Below are positions 33,578 to 45,932 of a DNA stretch of 64,000 bases, piece after piece; the stretch's first letter is position 1; every line of letters begins with the position of its first letter. Below the pieces are notes generated by a model. It did no database searches. It saw only the letters and a program-made list of their open reading frames with translations, and was not told the DNA's origin. The stretch comes from Actinomycetota bacterium (GTDB lineage: Bacteria; Actinomycetota; Acidimicrobiia; Acidimicrobiales; Ilumatobacteraceae). The stretch covers positions 62,001 to 126,000 of the forward strand of contig VFZC01000001.1 of NCBI GenBank assembly GCA_016871355.1. The letters are read 5' to 3'. The translations under genes and the position numbers were made by a program.

Positions 33578-33874
33578 TCAGTGTTCGTCCCAGTGGCCGT
33601 CGTGGAGGGCGTGGCGGTGACCGTCGTGCAGGTAGTCCACGTGGTCGCCGTGCTGGATCGCTTCGTGGCCGCAGCCGGGGCCGTGTTGGTGCTCTGCGTG
33701 CTCTGCGTGCTCTGCGTGCACGCTCGAGCACTCGTCCCAGTGCCCCTCGTGGAGGTGATGCACGTGGCCGTCGTGGAAGTAGTCGACGTGGTCGCCATGT
33801 GTGATCGAGGCGTGCCCGCAGTCGGGGCCGTGCTGGTGCTGGTGGTCCTCGTGGACCGCATGGGTGGTGCTCAT
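33578..33874 (-). CDS. His-rich metal-binding-type protein with two internal repeats
   Basis: HQHGPDCGHASITHGDHVDYFHDGHVHHLHEGHWDE / HQHGPGCGHEAIQHGDHVDYLHDGHRHALHDGHWDE. Confidence 0.85.
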   Translation of the reverse strand: MSTTHAVHEDHQHQHGPDCGHASITHGDHVDYFHDGHVHHLHEGHWDECSSVHAEHAEHAEHQHGPGCGHEAIQHGDHVDYLHDGHRHALHDGHWDEH

Positions 33875-34188
33875 GTTCGTGCCTCCTCGGCATGTCGAAT
33901 CGCGTCGCGGACGATGTGGATCACATGGTCGTCGGCGATCACGTAACGGATCTCCTTGCCGTCGCGTCGCCCGACGATCAGGTTTGCCGAGCGCAGCACG
34001 CGGAGGTGTTGCGACATCAGCGGTTGGCTCACGTCGAGCGAGGCGACGAGTTCGTGCACGCACTGCTCACCGTGCTCCTCGAGTTCGAGGATCACACCAA
34101 GACGAACCGGGTTGCCCAACACCTTGAGCAACTCGGCGCCCCGCATGATGTTCGGATGGTCAGCGGGCGGCACGCGCCGAGTATACAC
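33871..34188 (-). CDS. ArsR/SmtB-family transcriptional regulator
   Basis: LLKVLGNPVRLGVILELEEHGEQCVHELVASLDVSQPLMSQHLRVLRSANLIVGRRDGKEIRYVIAD; 4-nt overlap with the His-rich gene; exact GTG/ATG start uncertain. Confidence 0.93.
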   Translation of the reverse strand: MYTRRVPPADHPNIMRGAELLKVLGNPVRLGVILELEEHGEQCVHELVASLDVSQPLMSQHLRVLRSANLIVGRRDGKEIRYVIADDHVIHIVRDAIRHAEEART

Positions 34189-34794: not shown

Positions 34795-34813
34795 TCTCGG
34801 ACTCGCTCCGATT
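34795..34813. promoter_or_regulatory. Putative Zur box S1
   Basis: TCTCGGACTCGCTCCGATT, 14/19 to AATCGGAATTGTTCCGATT; upstream of the zur gene (34846). Confidence 0.55.
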
Positions 34814-34845: not shown

Positions 34846-35292
34846 ATGGCCGTCGAAGTGAACGACATCCACCTTCTGGTCGAACGCCGTATGCGCGACA
34901 CCGAGTTGGTCTACACGAAGGGCAGGCGGGAGATCGTCGAGATGCTGGCGACGATCACGCGCCCGACAACCATGCAAGAACTCCTCGATCGCCGACCCCG
35001 GCTCAACCAGGGCTCGATGTACCGGAACATGACCGACCTCGAAACCGCCGGCGTCGTGCAGAAGGTCATCGGAGCCGACGACCGCACCCGCTACGAACTC
35101 GCCGAGCACCTGATCGGCCACCACCACCACAGCATCTGCAGCCAGTGCGGCGCGGTCGACGACTTCACCATCTCTTCGAAGATGGAGAAGTCACTCGAAG
35201 CGGCACTTGAACGCGCTCTCGGCGAAGCCGGCTTCCACCCGACAGCTCACCGGCTCGACGTGATCGGCATCTGCGCCAGCTGCGCTGCCTGA
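34846..35292 (+). CDS. zur: Fur-family metalloregulator, probable Zur
   Basis: TKGRREIVEMLATITRPTTMQELLDRRPRLNQGSMYRNMTDLETAGVVQKV; HHHHSICSQC and CASC metal motifs; genomic context. Confidence 0.85.
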   Translation: MAVEVNDIHLLVERRMRDTELVYTKGRREIVEMLATITRPTTMQELLDRRPRLNQGSMYRNMTDLETAGVVQKVIGADDRTRYELAEHLIGHHHHSICSQCGAVDDFTISSKMEKSLEAALERALGEAGFHPTAHRLDVIGICASCAA

Positions 35293-35318: not shown

Positions 35319-35489
35319 TCAGCGCTCCTCTTTGAACACCACGTGGCGACGCAAGACCGGGTCGTACTTCTTGAGTTCGAGGCGTTCGCGGTCGTTTACC
35401 TTGTTTTTCTTCGTCACGTAGGTGTAACCCGTACCTTCGGTGCTCTTGAGCTTGATGATCGGGCGACGGTCCTTGCTCGCCTTGGCCAT
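35319..35489 (-). CDS. rpmG: 50S ribosomal protein L33, cysteine-free (C-) paralog
   Basis: [56 protein letters not shown]; no CxxC pairs. Confidence 0.93.
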
Positions 35490-35725
35490 CAGACCTTCAC
35501 CCCGCGGGCCCGCAGCTCGGCAACGACCGACTCGATACCCCGGCGATCGATCGTCTTGATCGCCCTCGTCGACAGGGTGAGCCGGACCCAGCGGCGCTCG
35601 CTCGGCAGGTAGTACCGCTTCCGTTGGATGTTCGCATCCCACCGGCGGTTGGTGCGGCGATGTGAGTGAGACACCGATTTTCCGAAACCGGGCTTGGTCC
35701 CGAAGAGCTGACAGACGTTCGACAT
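35489..35725 (-). CDS. rpmB: 50S ribosomal protein L28, zinc-ribbon-less paralog
   Basis: [63 protein letters not shown]; a single Cys. Confidence 0.93.
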
Positions 35726-35742
35726 GGATTCGAGTGTATCGG

Positions 35743-35761
35743 AGTCGGAGTGATTCCGATA
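35743..35761. promoter_or_regulatory. Putative Zur box S2, divergent rpmB/rpmE2 promoter
   Basis: AGTCGGAGTGATTCCGATA, 14/19 to consensus; within a 27-bp inverted repeat GTATCGGA..TCCGATAC (35736-35762). Confidence 0.7.
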
Positions 35762-35772
35762 CAATCGGGACG

Positions 35773-36033
35773 ATGAAGCGAGATATCCACCCCGACTACC
35801 GCCCTGTCGTGTTCGAAGACGTGTCGATCGGCGAGCGTTGGCTGAGCGCCTCGACGGTACGAACCGACAAGACGGTCGAGTGGACCGATGGCAACACGTA
35901 CCCGCTGTTCACCGTCGAGATCTCGAACCTCACACATCCTTACTTCACCGGCCAGATGAAGATCTTCGACACCACAGGCCGGGTCGAGCGGTTCAACAAG
36001 CGATACGGCGCCCGGAAGGCCCCGAAGGTGTGA
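35773..36033 (+). CDS. rpmE2: 50S ribosomal protein L31 type B
   Basis: [29 protein letters not shown]...[37 protein letters not shown]; no Cys. Confidence 0.95.
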
Positions 36034-37040
36034 GCAACGACCTGCCTTGGGCCGACCGAGGGCTCACTCCGGTCACGGTGATCGCAGGAGGCCACGAAGC
36101 GGCCGTCTTGGCTGCGCGACTTGCGCTCGGCCTCCGTGACGGGGTCTGTCCCGAACAGGTCGCGGTGGTCGCCGAGGCGCCTGCACCGGAGTCCGTCGGC
36201 GAGATCGCCTGGTGCGTCGTGCGTCCTGTCGAGGGTGCGCGGACCGAGGGATGTGATTGCTGTCGCGTCCGTCTCGACCTCGTCGGTGCGATCCGGCTGG
36301 TGCTCGAACGACCGACTCCCCCGCAGCGTGTACTCGTGGTCGCTTCGGAGTCGAGCGACGTCTCGACGATCGCGCAGACCTTGCTCTCGGAACCGGCGAT
36401 GCAGCGTCTGGTCGATCTCGACGGCGTCGTGGTCACGGTCGATGCCGTGGCACAAGCGACACGCGTCGCGCTCGGCCTCCCGTTCGACGACGAGATGGGA
36501 TTGGCGAGGCTTGCGGTCGCCGACCGAGTGCTGGTCTCTCGCGCCGACGACGTGACGGACGACGCGCTCGGAACGGTCATGCGTTCGCTGCGCACGATCA
36601 ACCGGTTCGGCTTCATCGCAGCACCGGCTCTGAGTCCGATCGACATGAGCGCGATCGTCGATCTGCGAGCGTGGCACGGCGCACCACCGCTCGGCTCGGA
36701 TCGGATGGTCGAGCCCGTCGTGGTTGCCGATGGCACTCGGTGGCCGGTCACGGTACGTTGCGAGATGGACGGCTTCTGCGATGCCGACGCGGTCGACGGG
36801 TGGTTCGATCACTTGATCGCGCAGCACGGTTCGCGGATCCTGAGGCTCCAGGGTGCGGTGGCCGTCGTCGGACACGAGCACCGGGTCTGCTGTCGCGGTG
36901 TTCGCAGCTTCGCGATCAGTCACTCCGAGACGGAGCATCGTGCCGACGAGCGCTCGCCGCTGAGCATCGTCGCAGTGGTGGGTTACGGCCTCGACGCCGA
37001 CGCCGTACGCGCCGAGTTCGAAGCCACCCGCGCACGCTGA
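36030..37040 (+). CDS. COG0523-like protein without recognisable GTPase P-loop, CxCC retained
   Basis: VTVIAGGHEAAVLAARL in place of VTVLSGFLGAGKTSLL; EGCDCCRVRLDL; GTG start overlaps the rpmE2 stop by 4 nt. Confidence 0.75.
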   Translation: MSNDLPWADRGLTPVTVIAGGHEAAVLAARLALGLRDGVCPEQVAVVAEAPAPESVGEIAWCVVRPVEGARTEGCDCCRVRLDLVGAIRLVLERPTPPQRVLVVASESSDVSTIAQTLLSEPAMQRLVDLDGVVVTVDAVAQATRVALGLPFDDEMGLARLAVADRVLVSRADDVTDDALGTVMRSLRTINRFGFIAAPALSPIDMSAIVDLRAWHGAPPLGSDRMVEPVVVADGTRWPVTVRCEMDGFCDADAVDGWFDHLIAQHGSRILRLQGAVAVVGHEHRVCCRGVRSFAISHSETEHRADERSPLSIVAVVGYGLDADAVRAEFEATRAR

Positions 37041-37098: not shown

Positions 37099-38088
37099 AT
37101 GGACGTCGTGACGAGCGTGGAGATCGTCTGGCGTCACTCGATGCCGGATGCAGCCAGACACCTCGCCTGGACCGATCTCGGTCTTGTCATCGCCCGCGAC
37201 GACGGGCACATCGTCCTCGTCGACGACTCGACGGCGGGTGTTCGACACGTGCTCGACGTCAGCGCTCCGCCGACGGCGCTCGCCGCCGCCGGCGAGGCCA
37301 TGGTCGTCGGAGGCCTCGACGGCAGCCTCACGCACCTCGCACGTGGCGTCCGCACCTCCTGGCACGTCGCAGAACCGATCGTTGCAGCTGCATGCGTGCG
37401 TGGAACCGTGATCGTCGGCCACGGGACCTCTGCGCGCGCCGTCGTACCGCATCCGATCGACGCGCTCGAAGGCGGCGTCGGTTCGGTCACGGCGATCGGG
37501 TGCGCCGCCGGGCGGCTGGCAGTGATCGGCGGCACCACCGGTCTCGCATGGGTCGACACCGGCCTCCTCGTCGTGGACGGTCGGATCGACCTGCCGACGA
37601 TCGTGTCGGTGGCACACGATCCTCGAGAACGTGTGGTGGCATGTGGCGACCTCGGCGGCTCCATCCATGTGCTCCGACCGGGGACCGGTGAGGCGAACGA
37701 GCTCACCGGTTATCCCGATCGTGTCGACCTGATCGCGTTTGCGGCGAGTGGCCGTGCCCTGTGCGCCTGCGCGTCGGACGAGATGACAGTGTGGCCGGTC
37801 GACGACGACGGCGGGGTCGAGGAACCCGAACCACGTCGGCTCGTCGGACACGACGAGCCGATCACCGCCCTCGCTGCGAGCGAGGTCGACGACCTCGTCG
37901 TGACAGGCGATGCGTCAGGTCTCGTGCGCGTCTGGGCGCCGCTGCTGCTCGACCGTCCGGTAGCGACGCTGCGGACCGAAGGCGTGGTCCTTGCGATCTC
38001 CTGGCGTCCCGACGGGCGCGGCGTCGCGATCAGCTCGTCATCGGGGACGCTGCTGTTCGCCGACGTACGGCCCGGCGCCGTCGCGTGA
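37099..38088 (+). CDS. WD40-like beta-propeller protein
   Basis: Repeated blades: VIARDDGHIVLVDD, MVVGGLDGSLTHLA, VVACGDLGGSIHVLR, VVTGDASGLVRVWAPL, AISWRPDGRGVAISSSSGTLLFAD. Confidence 0.75.
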   Translation: MDVVTSVEIVWRHSMPDAARHLAWTDLGLVIARDDGHIVLVDDSTAGVRHVLDVSAPPTALAAAGEAMVVGGLDGSLTHLARGVRTSWHVAEPIVAAACVRGTVIVGHGTSARAVVPHPIDALEGGVGSVTAIGCAAGRLAVIGGTTGLAWVDTGLLVVDGRIDLPTIVSVAHDPRERVVACGDLGGSIHVLRPGTGEANELTGYPDRVDLIAFAASGRALCACASDEMTVWPVDDDGGVEEPEPRRLVGHDEPITALAASEVDDLVVTGDASGLVRVWAPLLLDRPVATLRTEGVVLAISWRPDGRGVAISSSSGTLLFADVRPGAVA

Positions 38089-38985: not shown

Positions 38986-40221
38986 CTACGGCGATGGGGT
39001 TGGCGATGGGGTTGGCGATTCGGATGTGAGTACGGCGACGACGTCGGCGACCGTCCTCAGTTGCGATGCCGATGTGACTCGCTCGGCGTAGCCCTGCATC
39101 TCGGCGAACCCGAGCGGCCACGCGCCGACCGGTTCTGGTGTGCACCAGTGCAGGCCGGCCGCGCGGCGCATCCACCGTTCGACGACCTCGAAGCCGGGGT
39201 CGGCACCATTGCTGCGGCCGTCACCGAAGACGATCACGGTCGTCACCCGCCCGATCCGTGTCCCAGCTCGTTCGTCGATGGCACGCAGCGCCGCCCCGTA
39301 GTCCGACGCAGCACCGATGTCGACCACTCCCCCGTCGAGCAGCACGTCGACGGCGACGTCGGGCGCCGATCGGCGGACGATGGACGTCGCGTCAACGGGG
39401 CGATCGACGAAGGCGATCAGCCTGACTCCACGGCTGCATCGCGTGAGTGCGTCCGCTGTGTGCAGTGCGAGCACTGCAGTCGGGCGCACCGAGATGCTCA
39501 CGTCGGCGAGCACCACCACCCGTGGCGCGACCCGTATCCGACCGCGGCGGCGGAGCATCATCGGCACGCCGGACGAGCGCTGCGCGGCCCGCATGGTGGC
39601 GCGCACGTCGAGGCGGCCCAAGCGCGATGGACCCCACCGACGCGCGTCGTGCCGGTGGCGATGAACGAAGGTTCGAGCGGCTCGTTCGACCTGGCGGCGT
39701 TCCGACGGAGAGATCTCGGACCTCTCCCGTGCCTGCAGCGACGGTCGGAGACGGTGCCATCGGCGGTCGTCACCGGCGCGCTCGCCGGCATCGGCGAGAT
39801 CGACGCCGTCGAGCCCGATGCTCTGACCGGTGTCGGAGCCCTCTGCGCGCTGTGCCAGGCCCTGCTCCATGCTCTCCGCGCGCTGGTCCTCGACCGAGAT
39901 CCGCTCGGCGAGGTCGGGCAGCTGCCCGATCACCGGTGCCGAGCCATCGAAGCCGACGTCCGATGACACGTCAGACGACCTCGGTTCGGCCGGGTCGAGA
40001 TGTGAGAGCTCGTCGAGGAGCGCACCGAGCTCGTCATCGAACACGGCGTCGTTGCCCGCATGCTTGACCAGCGTCGCCCGCAGCGCCGCGGTCGCCCGTT
40101 GTCGGTCGTGCCAACCGATCAGCGCGACACAGCGATGGGCGTCGATCACCTCGGCGACCGAGATCGGCAGACCGCGCGCCCGGAGCCGCCCGGCGAGGCG
40201 CACGATCAGCTGGTCGCTCAC
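38986..40221 (-). CDS. CoxE-like VWA-domain protein
   Basis: RRRGRIRVAPRVVVLADVSISVRPTAVLALHTADAL...VTTVIVFGDGRSNGADPGFEVVERWMRRAAGLHWCTPEP. Confidence 0.85.
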   Translation of the reverse strand: MSDQLIVRLAGRLRARGLPISVAEVIDAHRCVALIGWHDRQRATAALRATLVKHAGNDAVFDDELGALLDELSHLDPAEPRSSDVSSDVGFDGSAPVIGQLPDLAERISVEDQRAESMEQGLAQRAEGSDTGQSIGLDGVDLADAGERAGDDRRWHRLRPSLQARERSEISPSERRQVERAARTFVHRHRHDARRWGPSRLGRLDVRATMRAAQRSSGVPMMLRRRGRIRVAPRVVVLADVSISVRPTAVLALHTADALTRCSRGVRLIAFVDRPVDATSIVRRSAPDVAVDVLLDGGVVDIGAASDYGAALRAIDERAGTRIGRVTTVIVFGDGRSNGADPGFEVVERWMRRAAGLHWCTPEPVGAWPLGFAEMQGYAERVTSASQLRTVADVVAVLTSESPTPSPTPSP

Positions 40222-41174
40222 GGGCTGACGAGCAACGATTCGACGCGCGGGCCGACCAGCGCCTCATCGGCCGCGTGCTTGACCACGAGTCCGAGCGTGG
40301 CGCGAACGAGTTCAGGATCGAGTGCGGTGGCGTTCAGCAACGCAAGTGCTCGCGCCCAGTCGAGTGTCTCGCTCACACCCGGCGGTTTGCGGAGCCCGAG
40401 CGAGCGGAGTCCGGTGAGGAACGCCACCACCGATGCTCGCAGCGCTGCTGTGAGGTGCGGGACGTGGGTGGCGATGATCGCCGACTCGCGTTCGCGGGTC
40501 GGGTGGTCGAAGCCGATCCGCAGGCAGCGTCGCCGCAGCGCGTCGGACAGGTCACGCGTGTCGTTGCTGGTGATCACAGCGAGGATCGGCGACGAGGCAC
40601 GGATGGTTCCGAGCTCCGGGATCGTCACCTGACCCTCGCCGAGCACCTCGAGCAGCAGCGCCTCGAACGACTCGTCGGAGCGATCGACCTCGTCGACGAG
40701 CAAGACGACCGGCGTGGACGAGCGTACGGCCGCCAGCAGAGGACGCTCGACCAAGAATCGCTCCGAGAAGAACAGGTCTTCGAGGTGAGCGGTGGCGTCG
40801 ATCGCCTCGTCGATCGAGCCGTCGAGTTCGCTGTCGATACGTGGTCGCATCAGCTGGACCGCGAGCATCTGACGCCCGTAGTCCCACTCGTACAGCGATC
40901 TCGCCTCGTCGAGCTCCTCGTGACACTGCAACCGGATGAGGCGCCGTCCGAGCGACGCGGCGAGCGAGATCGCGAGCTGGGTCTTGCCCGTTCCGGGAGG
41001 TCCCTCTGCGAGGATCGGTCGGTTGAGTGAGAGGGCCAACGCGGCCACCGTCGCCGTCGAATCATCGGCCAGGTAGCCGCGATCGGCGAGCAGCAACCGA
41101 ATGCTGTCGATGTCGAGCGGCGCGGAGACCCCGACGTCTGCTGCTGGATCTCGATCGAGGCCTTCGGCGCTCAC
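40218..41174 (-). CDS. MoxR-family AAA+ ATPase
   Basis: LAEGPPGTGKTQLAISLAASLGRRLIRLQCHEELDEARSLYEWDYGRQ...VVLLVDEVDRSDESFEALLLEVL; 4-nt overlaps with both neighbours. Confidence 0.93.
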   Translation of the reverse strand: MSAEGLDRDPAADVGVSAPLDIDSIRLLLADRGYLADDSTATVAALALSLNRPILAEGPPGTGKTQLAISLAASLGRRLIRLQCHEELDEARSLYEWDYGRQMLAVQLMRPRIDSELDGSIDEAIDATAHLEDLFFSERFLVERPLLAAVRSSTPVVLLVDEVDRSDESFEALLLEVLGEGQVTIPELGTIRASSPILAVITSNDTRDLSDALRRRCLRIGFDHPTRERESAIIATHVPHLTAALRASVVAFLTGLRSLGLRKPPGVSETLDWARALALLNATALDPELVRATLGLVVKHAADEALVGPRVESLLVSP

Positions 41175-42439
41175 CTGCTGCCGACCATCGACGCCTTCAC
41201 GAGGGCCGACATCGAGTCGAGGGTGAGCGCGCGCGGATTCGTGACGGTGCAGACATCACCGAGTGCGTGAAGGGCGATGCGAGCGCAGTCGGCGTCGTCA
41301 CCGACGATCGTGGCCGCGTGTGCGTAGCGGCCTTCGCCGATTCGACTCTTGCTGTAGCGCGGGAGGTCGTTGAGCGAGGTGAAGTTGTGGGGAATGCCGA
41401 CGTCGTCGGCCAGCCGCCGCGTCGCCATGAGCGCCGCATCGGCGGCCTGGACATCGCTCATCCCTCGCGTGTCGACGCCCATCGCCTGGGCGATGCGGGC
41501 GAACTTCCGGTATGCCATCGGTAGGTTCGCCTCCCAGACGGGGAACGTCGCGATCGCGTTGCCGAGGCCGTGGTGGGTGTCGTAGTGGGCGCTCGTGGCG
41601 TGGCTGATCGAGTGCACCGCATCGAGCCCTGCCGAGTTGAAGGCCTGGCCTGCGATGTACTGGGCGTACATCATCCCTTCGCGAGCGACCGCGTCGTAGC
41701 CGTTGCCGACCGCCGGGCGCAGGTGGGTGGTGAGCAACTCGATCGCCTGGAGCGCCTGACCGTGAGAAGGAGTCATCTCGAGAACCGACACATACGCGCC
41801 GACGGCGTGTGCGAGCACGTCGAATCCACAGAAGGCCGTGAGATCACTTGGCATGCTGTAGAACAGCACCGGATCGTCGATCGCCATCGTCGGTGCCACT
41901 GCGTGGGCGAAGCTCGCGAACTTGTGGGGCTTGTCCGGGTCGGTGGTGGTGTCGGTGATCACGAACGCGAAGCTCGTCTCGGATCCCGTGCCCGCCGTTG
42001 TCGACACGGCGATGTGTGGCGGCAGGACGGGATTCTCGAGTGCGAGCGGCCCCTTGAAGTCGGTGATCAGTCGGCCATCGTGCGCAGCGACGACGCGCGT
42101 CGCCTTGGTGCAGTCGTGCGACGAGCCGCCACCGAGCGAGATGAACGAGTCGCATCGTTCCGACCGGAACACGGCGTGAGCCGCCATCACATCGCTGTCT
42201 TTCGGGTTGGACTGCACCCGATCGAAGACGATCACCTCCACACCGGCCGCTTCCACCTGCGCTCGGATCTCCTCCACGATGCCGGTGCCGCGGAGCCCTG
42301 TCGTCATCAGCAGCGTGCGTCGGAAGCCGAGCTCGGATGCCGACGCGCCGATCATCTCGTGGGCGCCTGGGCCGAGCAGCGCCGGCGGCACCGGGTGGAA
42401 GTTCTTGATCGGGAAGATGTGGAGGCGACCGACGTCCAT
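41171..42439 (-). CDS. Iron-containing (group III) alcohol dehydrogenase, NDMA-dependent methanol dehydrogenase-like
   Basis: FHPVPPALLGPGAHEMIG...RTLLMTTGLRGTGIVEE...SNPKDSDVM...ISLGGGSSHDCTKATRVV...STTAGTGSETSFAFVITD...AQYIAGQAFNSAGLDAVHSISHA. Confidence 0.92.
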   Translation of the reverse strand: MDVGRLHIFPIKNFHPVPPALLGPGAHEMIGASASELGFRRTLLMTTGLRGTGIVEEIRAQVEAAGVEVIVFDRVQSNPKDSDVMAAHAVFRSERCDSFISLGGGSSHDCTKATRVVAAHDGRLITDFKGPLALENPVLPPHIAVSTTAGTGSETSFAFVITDTTTDPDKPHKFASFAHAVAPTMAIDDPVLFYSMPSDLTAFCGFDVLAHAVGAYVSVLEMTPSHGQALQAIELLTTHLRPAVGNGYDAVAREGMMYAQYIAGQAFNSAGLDAVHSISHATSAHYDTHHGLGNAIATFPVWEANLPMAYRKFARIAQAMGVDTRGMSDVQAADAALMATRRLADDVGIPHNFTSLNDLPRYSKSRIGEGRYAHAATIVGDDADCARIALHALGDVCTVTNPRALTLDSMSALVKASMVGSR

Positions 42440-42484
42440 GAGAGCCCTCTCGTTCGACGATGACCACTCCGGCCATCGCAAATG

Positions 42485-42503
42485 TATCGTAATAGATCCG
42501 ATT
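42485..42503. promoter_or_regulatory. Putative Zur box S3 upstream of the alcohol dehydrogenase
   Basis: TATCGTAATAGATCCGATT, 15/19 to consensus, 46 bp from the start codon (42439). Confidence 0.55.
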
Positions 42504-42526: not shown

Positions 42527-43010
42527 TCAGAACGAACTGAGGGCGTACATCGCCTCGGCACCCACCACCGCCCCGACGATCAGTTCGCCCGCTCGCCGGG
42601 CTCCGGCAAGGTTTCCGGCGGTCGGGCCGAGCTGCAGAGAGCCAATGCAGCGCGGTCGACGAGCACACCACGTCGACGTCGCCGATCGGTGCGCTCGCGA
42701 GCCAGCCGCCGTCAGCGACGTCGTGTTCGATGATCTCGGCGCGGCGCGGGCCGAACGTCGCGGTGGCCTGACGCGCCAGCTCGAGCAACACCGGATCGAT
42801 GTCCACACCGATGTACTTCGAACCGGGGAGACGCCGAAGCAATCGTTCGCCGATGGCCGCCGGCCCACAACACAGATCGACCGCGGTCGGACACGCGGTA
42901 CCAGCGAGTTCCGCGTGCCACTCCACGGCCGAGAGCAGCACGGCGAACCGCTCCTCACGTTGACCGATGTACATCTCCTGCTGGCGATCCCACGCCTCGA
43001 TCATGGACAT
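42527..43010 (-). pseudogene. Truncated or frameshifted SAM-dependent methyltransferase
   Basis: AVDLCCGPAAIGERLLRRLPGSKYIGVDIDPVLLELARQATATFGPRRAEIIEHDVADGGWL...DVDVVCSSTALHWLSAAR, then apparent frame change to GNLAGARRAGELIVGAVVGAEAMYALSSF*. Confidence 0.55.
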
Positions 43011-43021
43011 GACGCCACCCT

Positions 43022-43040
43022 AATCGGAATTGTTCCGATT
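43022..43040. promoter_or_regulatory. Putative Zur box S4 (best palindrome)
   Basis: AATCGGAA-TTG-TTCCGATT, perfect 8-bp arms. Confidence 0.75.
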
Positions 43041-43049
43041 TCAAAGATG

Positions 43050-43068
43050 AATCGGAACAATTCTGATT
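43050..43068. promoter_or_regulatory. Putative Zur box S5, tandem to S4
   Basis: AATCGGAA-CAA-TTCTGATT, one arm mismatch; 28 bp from S4 start to start. Confidence 0.7.
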
Positions 43069-43096: not shown

Positions 43097-43648
43097 GTGG
43101 AACCTCGGGCGACATCGACCATCGCGCTGATCGGGATCGTCACGGTGTCCGACCGGGCAAGTCGTGGCGAGTACGACGACCGTGGAGGCCCGGCGATCGA
43201 TCGGTTCCTCGAAACACATCTGTCGTCGCAGTGGTCTGCGATTCGGCGACTCGTGCCCGACGAGGCACCTGAGATCGAGGCCTGCTTGCGAGAACTGTGC
43301 GACGAAGACGGATGCTGTCTCGTGATCACGACCGGTGGGACCGGGCCAGCCGCACGCGACGTGACGCCGGAGGCGACCGAGGCGGTGGCCGACAAGGTGC
43401 TACCAGGCTTCGGTGAGCTCATGCGGCAGGTATCGCTCGCCGCGGTGCCGACGGCGATCCTGTCCCGGCAGACCGCCGTCGTCCGTGGCACCTCGTTGAT
43501 CGTCAACCTGCCGGGGAAGCCGTCGGCGATCGACGACTGCCTCCGCGCGGTGTTGCCTGCGATCCCCTACTGCATCGATCTGATCGGCGGACCGCGCCTC
43601 GAGACCTGCGGCGGGATCACCGCGTTTCGTCCGGGTGGTTCGCCGTGA
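43097..43648 (+). CDS. MoaB/Mog-family molybdopterin-adenylyltransferase-like protein
   Basis: IGIVTVSDRASRGEYDDRGGPAIDRFL...VITTGGTGPAARDVTPEATEAVADKVLPGFGELMRQVS...LIVNLPGKPSAIDDCL. Confidence 0.92.
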   Translation: MEPRATSTIALIGIVTVSDRASRGEYDDRGGPAIDRFLETHLSSQWSAIRRLVPDEAPEIEACLRELCDEDGCCLVITTGGTGPAARDVTPEATEAVADKVLPGFGELMRQVSLAAVPTAILSRQTAVVRGTSLIVNLPGKPSAIDDCLRAVLPAIPYCIDLIGGPRLETCGGITAFRPGGSP

Positions 43649-44727
43649 CGGAGACCGACGGCCTCGTGGGTCTCGGCCCTGCGGTGTGGAGCGTCGATGC
43701 CGGCGACACCATCGCCGACCTCGTCTGGTCACCCACGGACGAACGTCTCGCCGTCGGATGCTCGGGCGGCGACGTGGCCGTGTTCGACGAGGCAGGCCAG
43801 GTGATCGACCGCAGGCTCCGTCACCCGTCGGGAACGTCGTGCGTCACGTGGTTCGGCGGCGACGTCGCCAGCGGCGGGGTCGACGGTTGGGTCGACGTCG
43901 GCGGTCATCGTGAACGACACGTTGGCTGGGTGAGCGCGCTCGCCCCGAGCGACACCGGGCTCGGCGTCGCGCACGGACGAGAGATCTCGATCCTCGGCGG
44001 CCCCTCCAGCGACCGGCTACCGGCCTCCGTCGCGCAGATCCGCTGGACCACAGGCCCCGGCGAGACCAACCGTCTGATCGCCTGCGGACACGGCTACATC
44101 GCCGAGTTCGACGCGACGCTCCGACATCGCAACGATGCAAACCTGGTGTGGGGTGGATCCGTCGAGCAGGTCGACTGGTCACCCGAGGGGCGCTGGGCCG
44201 CCGCAAGCACGCGCGGCACGACGAACTACCTGTGGCTCCGCCCGACCGCCGAGGACGGCAGAGTGATCGACCCGCAGGTGCACGTCCACGTGCTGCCGTG
44301 CCCAGCGAGCAACGGACGACTCGTCCGGTTCGACCCCACCGGCCGCCACCTCGGGATCGCGACCAGTGGAGGGCTCGCCGTGTTCGACCTCGACGACGTC
44401 CATCCGATCGCAGGGCCGCCAGGCCGGCTGCTTCCACTGTTCTGCCGCGTCCGCGCATTCTCGTGGTGGCCGGACGCACCGGTCGCCGTGCTCGGCGTCG
44501 CGACCGACTCCGGCGGTGGAGGCCTGCTCCTCGTGCGATGCGACGAACATGCAGCACCAGTCGGCGTCGTCGACCTCGGATCTGCGGTCACGGGAATCGC
44601 CTGGTCCAGCGGTTCCGACCTCGTCGCCGCCGCATGCGCCGACGGGACGGTGCACGCGCTGCGCCGTATCGAGGACTGGGACTGGCAGGCCAGCACCGGC
44701 GAGCGGGATGCCACGGACCGGCTGTGA
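43645..44727 (+). CDS. WD40-like beta-propeller protein
   Basis: IADLVWSPTDERLAVGCSGGDVAVFDEAG, VEQVDWSPEGRWAAASTRGTTNYLWLRP, VTGIAWSSGSDLVAAACADGTVHALRR; 4-nt overlaps on both sides. Confidence 0.85.
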   Translation: MTETDGLVGLGPAVWSVDAGDTIADLVWSPTDERLAVGCSGGDVAVFDEAGQVIDRRLRHPSGTSCVTWFGGDVASGGVDGWVDVGGHRERHVGWVSALAPSDTGLGVAHGREISILGGPSSDRLPASVAQIRWTTGPGETNRLIACGHGYIAEFDATLRHRNDANLVWGGSVEQVDWSPEGRWAAASTRGTTNYLWLRPTAEDGRVIDPQVHVHVLPCPASNGRLVRFDPTGRHLGIATSGGLAVFDLDDVHPIAGPPGRLLPLFCRVRAFSWWPDAPVAVLGVATDSGGGGLLLVRCDEHAAPVGVVDLGSAVTGIAWSSGSDLVAAACADGTVHALRRIEDWDWQASTGERDATDRL

Positions 44728-45932
44728 CGAACCCGGTCTCGACCACCCCGATCGCCACCAAGCTGCCAGTGACCGTGCTGTCGGGGTTCCTCGGCGCGGG
44801 CAAGACCAGCTTGCTCCGCCACGTGCTCACCAACCGCGACCAACTGCGGGTTGCGGTGATCGTCAACGACATGAGCGAAATCAACGTCGACGCGATGCTG
44901 CTGCGGGGCGCCGACGTCATGCGCACCGACGAACAGCTCGTCGAGATGACCAACGGCTGCATCTGCTGCACCCTGCGAGAGGACCTCGTCGTGGAGATCG
45001 CCCGCCTCGCGGCGCAGGGCCGCTTCGACCACCTCGTGATCGAGTCCACCGGGATCAGCGAACCGATGCCGGTCGCCACCACCTTCGCCTATCGAGGCGA
45101 GGATGGTGCGAGCCTCGGGGACGTCGCCGAGCTCGACACCACGGTCACCGTCATCGACGCCGCCACGATCCTCGACGAGCTCGGCACCCGAGACCGACTC
45201 CCCGACCGCGACCTGGCATCGACCGACGATGACGAGCGACGCATCGCGCACCTCCTCATCGACCAGATCGAGTTCGCCGACGTCCTCGTGATCAACAAGA
45301 CCGACCGAGTCGGTCGCCGCCAACTCGACGAGGTCGACGCCCTGCTCACCCATCTGAACCCCGGCGCGATCAAGCTGCGCGCCACACATGGCCGCGTGCC
45401 GCTCACCGAAGTCCTCGCCACCCGCCGCTACTCACCCGAGGCTTCCACCCGACGCGCCGGATGGGCACGAGAGCTCGCCGGCTTCCACACCCCTGAGGTG
45501 GAGAAGTACGGCATCGAGAGCTTCGTCTACCGGCGTCGCGTGCCCTTCCACCCACAACGACTGGCCGAGTTGTTCGACCGTGGCCTCCCCGGCGTCGTCC
45601 GCTCCAAGGGCACCTGCTGGATCGCATCACGCCTTTTCGTCTGCGGCGTATGGTCCCAGGCCGGAACTGCGATCACCCTCGAACCCTTCGGACACTGGTT
45701 CGCCACCGTCCCGCGCGACGAGTGGCCCGACGACCTGGCAACACGTGACTGGATCGACAGCATCTGGGATCCCGGCGTCGGCGATTGCCGCCAGGAGATC
45801 GCCATCATCGGCCGCAAGCTCAACCGCCCACACCTCGAACGCCTCCTCGATCGCGCCCTGCTCAACCGCCACGAACAGACCTTGCACCCCGACCGCTGGC
45901 TCGCCCTCCCCGACCCACTCCCGGCGTGGTGA
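44724..45932 (+). CDS. COG0523-family GTPase, putative zinc metallochaperone
   Basis: VTVLSGFLGAGKTSLLRHVL...EMTNGCICCTLREDL...ESTGISEPMPV...VLVINKTDRVG. Confidence 0.95.
   Translation: MTNPVSTTPIATKLPVTVLSGFLGAGKTSLLRHVLTNRDQLRVAVIVNDMSEINVDAMLLRGADVMRTDEQLVEMTNGCICCTLREDLVVEIARLAAQGRFDHLVIESTGISEPMPVATTFAYRGEDGASLGDVAELDTTVTVIDAATILDELGTRDRLPDRDLASTDDDERRIAHLLIDQIEFADVLVINKTDRVGRRQLDEVDALLTHLNPGAIKLRATHGRVPLTEVLATRRYSPEASTRRAGWARELAGFHTPEVEKYGIESFVYRRRVPFHPQRLAELFDRGLPGVVRSKGTCWIASRLFVCGVWSQAGTAITLEPFGHWFATVPRDEWPDDLATRDWIDSIWDPGVGDCRQEIAIIGRKLNRPHLERLLDRALLNRHEQTLHPDRWLALPDPLPAW

Follow-up and report, generated by a model that had tools for sequence, protein, structure and literature searches.

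An iron-family alcohol dehydrogenase operon in a zinc-starvation island of an Ilumatobacteraceae genome, and its possible role in zinc sparing

The window analysed here is a stretch of 64,000 nucleotides from an Actinomycetota bacterium of the family Ilumatobacteraceae (GenBank assembly GCA_016871355.1, contig VFZC01000001.1, positions 62,001 to 126,000), in which three genes, for an alcohol dehydrogenase (ADH) of the iron family, a MoxR-type ATPase and a VWA protein, make up one operon. The operon sits in a zinc-starvation island, together with a Fur-family regulator, ribosomal proteins L28, L33 and L31 without zinc-ribbon cysteines, two CobW-type proteins and two WD40 proteins. The best explanation for this arrangement, to which we assign a probability of roughly 0.6, is a zinc-sparing swap, in which enzymes with two zincs per subunit would give way to one with a single metal, because the same genome encodes MftC and two N,N-dimethyl-4-nitrosoaniline (NDMA)-dependent ADHs whose motifs point to two zincs in each subunit. 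This genome, hereafter G000, is a draft of 2.2 Mb in 59 contigs, 86% complete.

The operon and its operator

The ADH, MoxR and VWA genes form a single operon on the minus strand. A first-pass annotation of this DNA had described three genes running in one direction with 4-nt overlaps and an operator-like site (S3) upstream, all of which was confirmed: the three reading frames are open throughout at the coordinates of Table 1, the ADH gene starts with ATG at 42439, the overlaps (GTGA) are located at 41171-41174 (ADH/MoxR) and 40218-40221 (MoxR/VWA), and S3 lies in the expected place. The proposed likeness of the ADH to NDMA-dependent methanol/alcohol oxidoreductases holds for the iron family and its conserved ligands, but the score of 532.6 bits with TIGR04266 (NDMA-dependent methanol dehydrogenase) is under the cut-off of 625, so that the protein is a close relative only. 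It matches Pfam domains PF00465 (Fe-ADH) and PF25137, and among solved structures it comes closest to NAD(P)-dependent methanol dehydrogenases. Residues D207, H211, H276 and H290 correspond to the type III metal ligands and are invariant in the six members aligned; their counterparts in Mdh from Bacillus methanolicus are Asp193, His197, His262 and His276 (PMC3602061).

The MoxR protein, which is encoded directly 3' of the ADH in relatives too, holds a Walker A motif (GPPGTGKT) at residue 58 and a Walker B motif starting at residue 156, and reaches 315.6 bits with NF047784 (MadB), under the cut-off of 475. The VWA protein matches PF05762 (VWA_CoxE) with 93.6 bits and NF047783 (MadC) with 195.2 bits, under the cut-off of 600, and shows a metal ion-dependent adhesion site (MIDAS)-type DVSIS at residue 240. 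The MadB model was dropped as an orthology marker, since most genomes of the class have MoxR proteins that reach 300+ bits with it, none of them over the cut-off. A literature search on MadB/MadC and mycofactocin turned up nothing about MadB/MadC proteins.

S3 overlaps a candidate promoter (TTGAAC-17 nt-TATTAC) read by eye, and a scan for consensus sigma-70 promoters returned nothing at S3 by its criteria. The palindrome AATCGGA-N4-TTCCGATW has 11 matches in the window with up to three mismatches, versus 1.63 expected, and this number was reached in none of 100 shuffles. These matches correspond to six places, five of them in promoter regions of the island: zur (34795), L28/L31 (35743), ADH (42485) and methyltransferase/MogA (43022 and 43050). 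The L28/L31 site (AGTCGGAGTGATTCCGATA) also has one mismatch in a genome-wide scan with a shorter core.

Among 396 Acidimicrobiia genomes, a close ADH is found only in G000, G100 and G241, each time on a contig that also bears genes of a zinc island. A fourth case, L005, is a contig of 3.7 kb on which only the operator and a pair of genes for an ArsR-type regulator and a small His-rich protein are visible. This pair, also present at 33578-34188 of the window, lies directly upstream of the L005 ADH, and recurs inside the zinc island of another genome, G381. The L005 ADH is thus located behind the ArsR/His-rich genes, not behind a methyltransferase gene as in the window, and this different upstream neighbour indicates that the operator has been kept through rearrangement. 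Over the part compared, L005 and the window diverge very unevenly (ADH 90%, MoxR 75% and VWA 45% identical).

To avoid circularity, a position weight matrix was trained on seven sites from non-ADH promoters of G000 and G241 and then applied to the ADH promoters. The best sites were S3 in G000 (45 nt upstream of the start, score 18.95) and sites 49 nt upstream in L005 (22.75) and 40 nt upstream in G241 (20.97); no more than 2 of 1412 background windows scored as high (shuffle p≤0.0004). With the same matrix, the ADH promoter of Sciscionella showed no such site. In G241, a regulator 66% identical to that of the window has clean palindromes next to it. The G100 island is a mirror of the window, in the order L31-L33-L28/CobW-WD40 facing VWA-MoxR-ADH, and carries an operator variant, TGAGAA-N3-TTCTCA, at L28/CobW, ZigA, the gene for an FAD/NAD-binding protein and, with two mismatches, the ADH (4 sites in 20 kb versus 0.13 expected). 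In this lineage the operator at the ADH promoter has diverged. The G100 ADH forms a long branch when the zinc-island ADHs are compared for monophyly.

The Zur-type control predicted by the first-pass annotation is well supported, both by this motif test on sites outside the training set and by the conservation seen in further lineages: a Zur-type operator sequence is present at the ADH promoter, is kept in L005 and G241, and exists as a variant in G100. Judged from these sequences, it is very probable that the ADH operon is controlled by a zinc-type operator. Conservation of the operator inside the genus was also considered and rejected, as one-mismatch matches in same-genus genomes adjoin no island genes and the island is absent there. 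On inspection, the operator-like sites on contigs C2, C5, C10, C15 and C26 of G000 had no recognisable zinc gene adjacent, and the L31 promoters of relatives with a type B L31 (such as G442) contained no good operator site. The site on contig C4 precedes a znuA-like gene by ~320 nt, but falls within a divergent coding frame. On that contig (L247:2960-4928), genes for a znuA-like lipoprotein and a permease lie near TGAGAACAATTATCG, which resembles the G100 operator and not that of the island; G000 may use two related zinc operators.

Zinc sparing, precedents and points against

Mycofactocin genes elsewhere in the genome, which the first-pass annotation had proposed to look for, are present: MftC is encoded at G000:C13:6660-7673 (632 bits versus a cut-off of 265). 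Beside mftC, on the same contig, lie the genes for two NDMA-ADHs (TIGR03989; 552 and 548 bits) of the zinc-dependent medium-chain dehydrogenase/reductase (MDR) family. Both proteins contain the catalytic Cys/His/Glu and the structural four-Cys zinc motifs, and each subunit is expected to bind two zincs. Short-chain dehydrogenases/reductases, zinc MDRs and iron-family enzymes all occur among the mycofactocin nicotinoproteins (PMC3023750). In Mycobacterium smegmatis, the alcohol dehydrogenase associated with mycofactocin is Mno/Mdo (PMC11778925).

According to the mechanism proposed, a Zur-type repressor would bind S3 over the promoter and hold the ADH-MoxR-VWA operon off when zinc is plentiful, while scarce zinc would release it along with the zinc-free ribosomal proteins and the CobW/COG0523 proteins. 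The ADH would be a nicotinoprotein of the mycofactocin type, with one metal site per subunit, that replaces or supplements alcohol oxidation by the two zinc MDR NDMA-ADHs and supplies the mycofactocin pool which they also feed, and MoxR-VWA would be a partner dedicated to this ADH, activating or remodelling it at the expense of ATP. If true, bacteria would have a counterpart to the Adh1-to-Adh4 swap of yeast, which would link bacterial zinc sparing with mycofactocin metabolism, two fields that seldom meet. In yeast, Adh4, an isozyme with one metal ion, is upregulated while Zap1 represses the two-zinc enzymes Adh1 and Adh3 (PMC3369956); however, Zap1 is a eukaryotic activator, neither MoxR/VWA nor mycofactocin takes part, and the likeness is one of working, not of family.

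Related systems are also known from actinobacteria. The zinc island of M. smegmatis (MSMEG_6045-6071) also groups Zur-controlled zinc-independent ribosomal proteins, CobW/COG0523 proteins and a SAM (S-adenosylmethionine) methyltransferase (PMC7174638), but it has no alcohol dehydrogenase inside, and the mno operon of this species is located elsewhere. The adhA genes of Corynebacterium glutamicum and C. diphtheriae have a predicted Zur site (PMC2823685; PMC6103462), but encode a zinc-dependent enzyme, and the C. glutamicum site is not bound by Zur in vitro (PMC2823685). Zur-controlled zinc-free ADH paralogues have already been named as a class (PMC6103462).

Several points weigh against the proposed mechanism. 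The homologous operon of M. smegmatis, MSMEG_6242-6240, responds in the opposite sense: its expression drops 24-28-fold in a zur mutant, excess zinc lowers that of MSMEG_6242 4.6-fold, and no Zur site is predicted there (PMC7174638). This response to zur deletion is probably indirect, and it means that Zur repression is not a general trait of this ADH family. Mdh from B. methanolicus, which is homologous to the window ADH, has one Zn assigned to the equivalent four ligands (PMC3602061), and therefore the window ADH may need one zinc fewer without being free of the metal. The metal-sparing replacement of a zinc ADH put forward in the first-pass annotation stands as plausible, with two zinc MDR NDMA-ADHs beside mftC, but perhaps only in this reduced sense. 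Furthermore, the sequence of the window regulator alone does not separate Zur from Fur/PerR, and PerR/Fur structures outscore those of Zur/FurB as its matches; the name Zur is given here on the basis of its target genes, and the regulator is 40-66% identical to those of the zinc islands of other genomes. In addition, G241 (64% complete) has no MftC over the cut-off, and both regulation and metal use are predicted from a draft genome in 59 contigs.

The strongest of the rival explanations is that Zur control provides extra capacity under zinc stress, for example to dispose of alcohol or aldehyde formed then, and that no zinc ADH is replaced. Members of TIGR04266 oxidise several alcohols, which suits such a function; the operator and the island fit it equally well, and the genes of the zinc-type ADHs lie elsewhere in the genome, with nothing seen that would indicate their down-regulation. 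Nevertheless, MftC and TIGR03989 ADHs score over their cut-offs in three of the four genomes having the operon, and the remaining island paralogues (L28, L33 and L31) are replacements, which makes extra capacity an unlikely alternative to the zinc-sparing swap.

The trio in other genomes and the role of MoxR-VWA

The ADH-MoxR-VWA trio is known in actinobacteria (mno/mdo, 'MadB', 'MadC'), and what is new here is its regulation and its setting in a zinc island. In a phylum-wide TIGR04266 search, 21 of 22 loci outside G000 and G100 had a MoxR homologue directly downstream, the exception being on a short contig. The nine longer loci examined also contain a VWA gene and show no match to zinc-island proteins. 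The order ADH-MoxR-VWA in one direction is shared by the window, L006 and L249-L257; plasmid copies annotated in Rhodococcus and M. dioxanotrophicus consist of mdo, MoxR and VWA, and in Sciscionella the trio lies near the mycofactocin glycosyltransferase gene mftF. The window ADH is 55-57% identical to the actinobacterial plasmid copies. Unlike the mno/mdo operon of M. smegmatis, which is controlled by MnoSR (PMC11303327), the window operon has a zinc-type operator, and all three of its proteins fall under the equivalog cut-offs.

A second rival explanation assigns to MoxR-VWA the insertion or swapping of the ADH metal, Zur control serving to provide the inserter in zinc shortage; the first-pass annotation had likewise proposed a chaperone of its own for metal loading. 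CoxD/CoxE-type pairs are thought to mature metalloenzymes, and the pair is part of the ADH operon and lies directly 3' of the ADH across the phylum. However, no zinc context was seen around the pair-bearing homologues examined in other genomes. Furthermore, the two zinc-type ADHs of G000, which have metal sites of quite another kind, are followed by MoxR and VWA genes unrelated to those of the window (G000:C13, L190:8236-12542), the MoxR proteins being only ~27% identical. MoxR-VWA genes after TIGR03989 are also found in G489, G381, G100 and G028 (L203, L204, L206 and L207). Given the different folds and metal sites of the two ADH families, a joint activating or remodelling role is favoured over metal loading, which is improbable both as the function of the pair and as the reason for its zinc control. 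The distribution suggests instead that the role of MoxR-VWA is tied to mycofactocin/nicotinoprotein dehydrogenases as such.

Returning to the zinc-sparing swap, a wider version of it can tentatively be put forward, although we hold it to be rather less than an even bet. Under zinc starvation, the whole mycofactocin-dependent alcohol-oxidation module might be swapped, from zinc MDR-type ADH and MoxR-VWA to iron-family ADH and a different MoxR-VWA, on a single mycofactocin pool; MoxR-VWA pairs would then activate mycofactocin nicotinoproteins of any fold or metal. G000, where a zinc-type and an iron-type dehydrogenase that presumably share a redox cofactor each have a MoxR-VWA pair next to them, offers a natural test of the function of such pairs.

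The idea that this is an ordinary mno/mdo operon for alcohol utilisation, in the zinc island by chance and with S3 as a fortuitous palindrome, agrees with the wide occurrence of the trio and with its different regulator in M. smegmatis, but it is very improbable given that the ADH promoter carries a zinc-type operator in all four close relatives, in three cases next to genes of a zinc island, and that the two operator variants each track with their own island.

Other features of the island

The features of the island are collected in Table 1. A second L31 of G000, encoded at G000:C50, has a zinc ribbon (CSCGNKF...CNEC). The island is patchy: an ADH of this kind is found in none of 24 same-genus genomes, and no type B L31 was present among the same-genus genomes checked. 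It has probably been acquired. The G+C content climbs over 36-48 kb of the window.

Table 1. Genes and operator-like sites of the zinc island and the ADH operon (window positions).
Feature	Position	Strand	Basis or remark
Operator-like site upstream of regulator gene, AATCGGAGCGAGTCCGAGA	34795..34813	-	2 mismatches to palindrome
Fur-family regulator, putative Zur	34846..35292	+	PF01475; two CxxC pairs, HHHH
Ribosomal protein L33, Cys-free	35319..35492	-	sequence; 70-79% identical copies in island relatives
Ribosomal protein L28, no Cys pair	35492..35728	-	sequence; copies in the islands of G381 and G100 are 77-78% identical
Operator-like site between L28 and L31, AGTCGGAGTGATTCCGATA	35743..35761	+	1 mismatch
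Ribosomal protein L31, Cys-free (type B)	35773..36033	+	sequence
CobW-like protein	36030..37040	+	weak NF008578/TIGR02475 matches; equivalent place in G100 and G381 islands
WD40 beta-propeller protein, convergent with VWA gene	37099..38088	+	domain search; equivalent place in G100
VWA/CoxE protein, MadC-like	38986..40221	-	PF05762, NF047783, MIDAS-type motif
MoxR-type AAA+ ATPase, MadB-like	40218..41174	-	NF047784, AAA_5, Walker motifs
ADH, iron-family (type III), NDMA-methanol-dehydrogenase-like	41171..42439	-	TIGR04266, PF00465/PF25137, metal ligands
S3, putative Zur-type operator of ADH operon, AATCGGATCTATTACGATA	42485..42503	-	45 nt upstream of ADH start
Tandem operator-like palindromes, AATCGGAATTGTTCCGATT and AATCGGAACAATTCTGATT	43022..43068		0 and 1 mismatches
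Molybdopterin adenylyltransferase (MogA/MoaB type)	43097..43648	+	PRK09417 250 bits, over cut-off
WD40 protein	43645..44727	+	domain search
COG0523 GTPase, ZigA-like	44724..45932	+	NF038288 517.7 bits, under 600 cut-off

Between S3 and the MogA gene, at 42527-43010, lies a frame resembling a SAM methyltransferase, seemingly frameshifted or truncated and with the tandem operator-like sites upstream; a short homologous frame is present in G241 (L193:4559-5026). In M. smegmatis, MSMEG_6055 and MSMEG_6237 are zinc-responsive SAM methyltransferases (PMC7174638). FAD/NAD(P)-binding proteins, none of which was seen in the window, are encoded in the zinc islands of G241 (L193:2163-3503) and G100 (L192:13360-14628), the G100 gene having an operator at its start.

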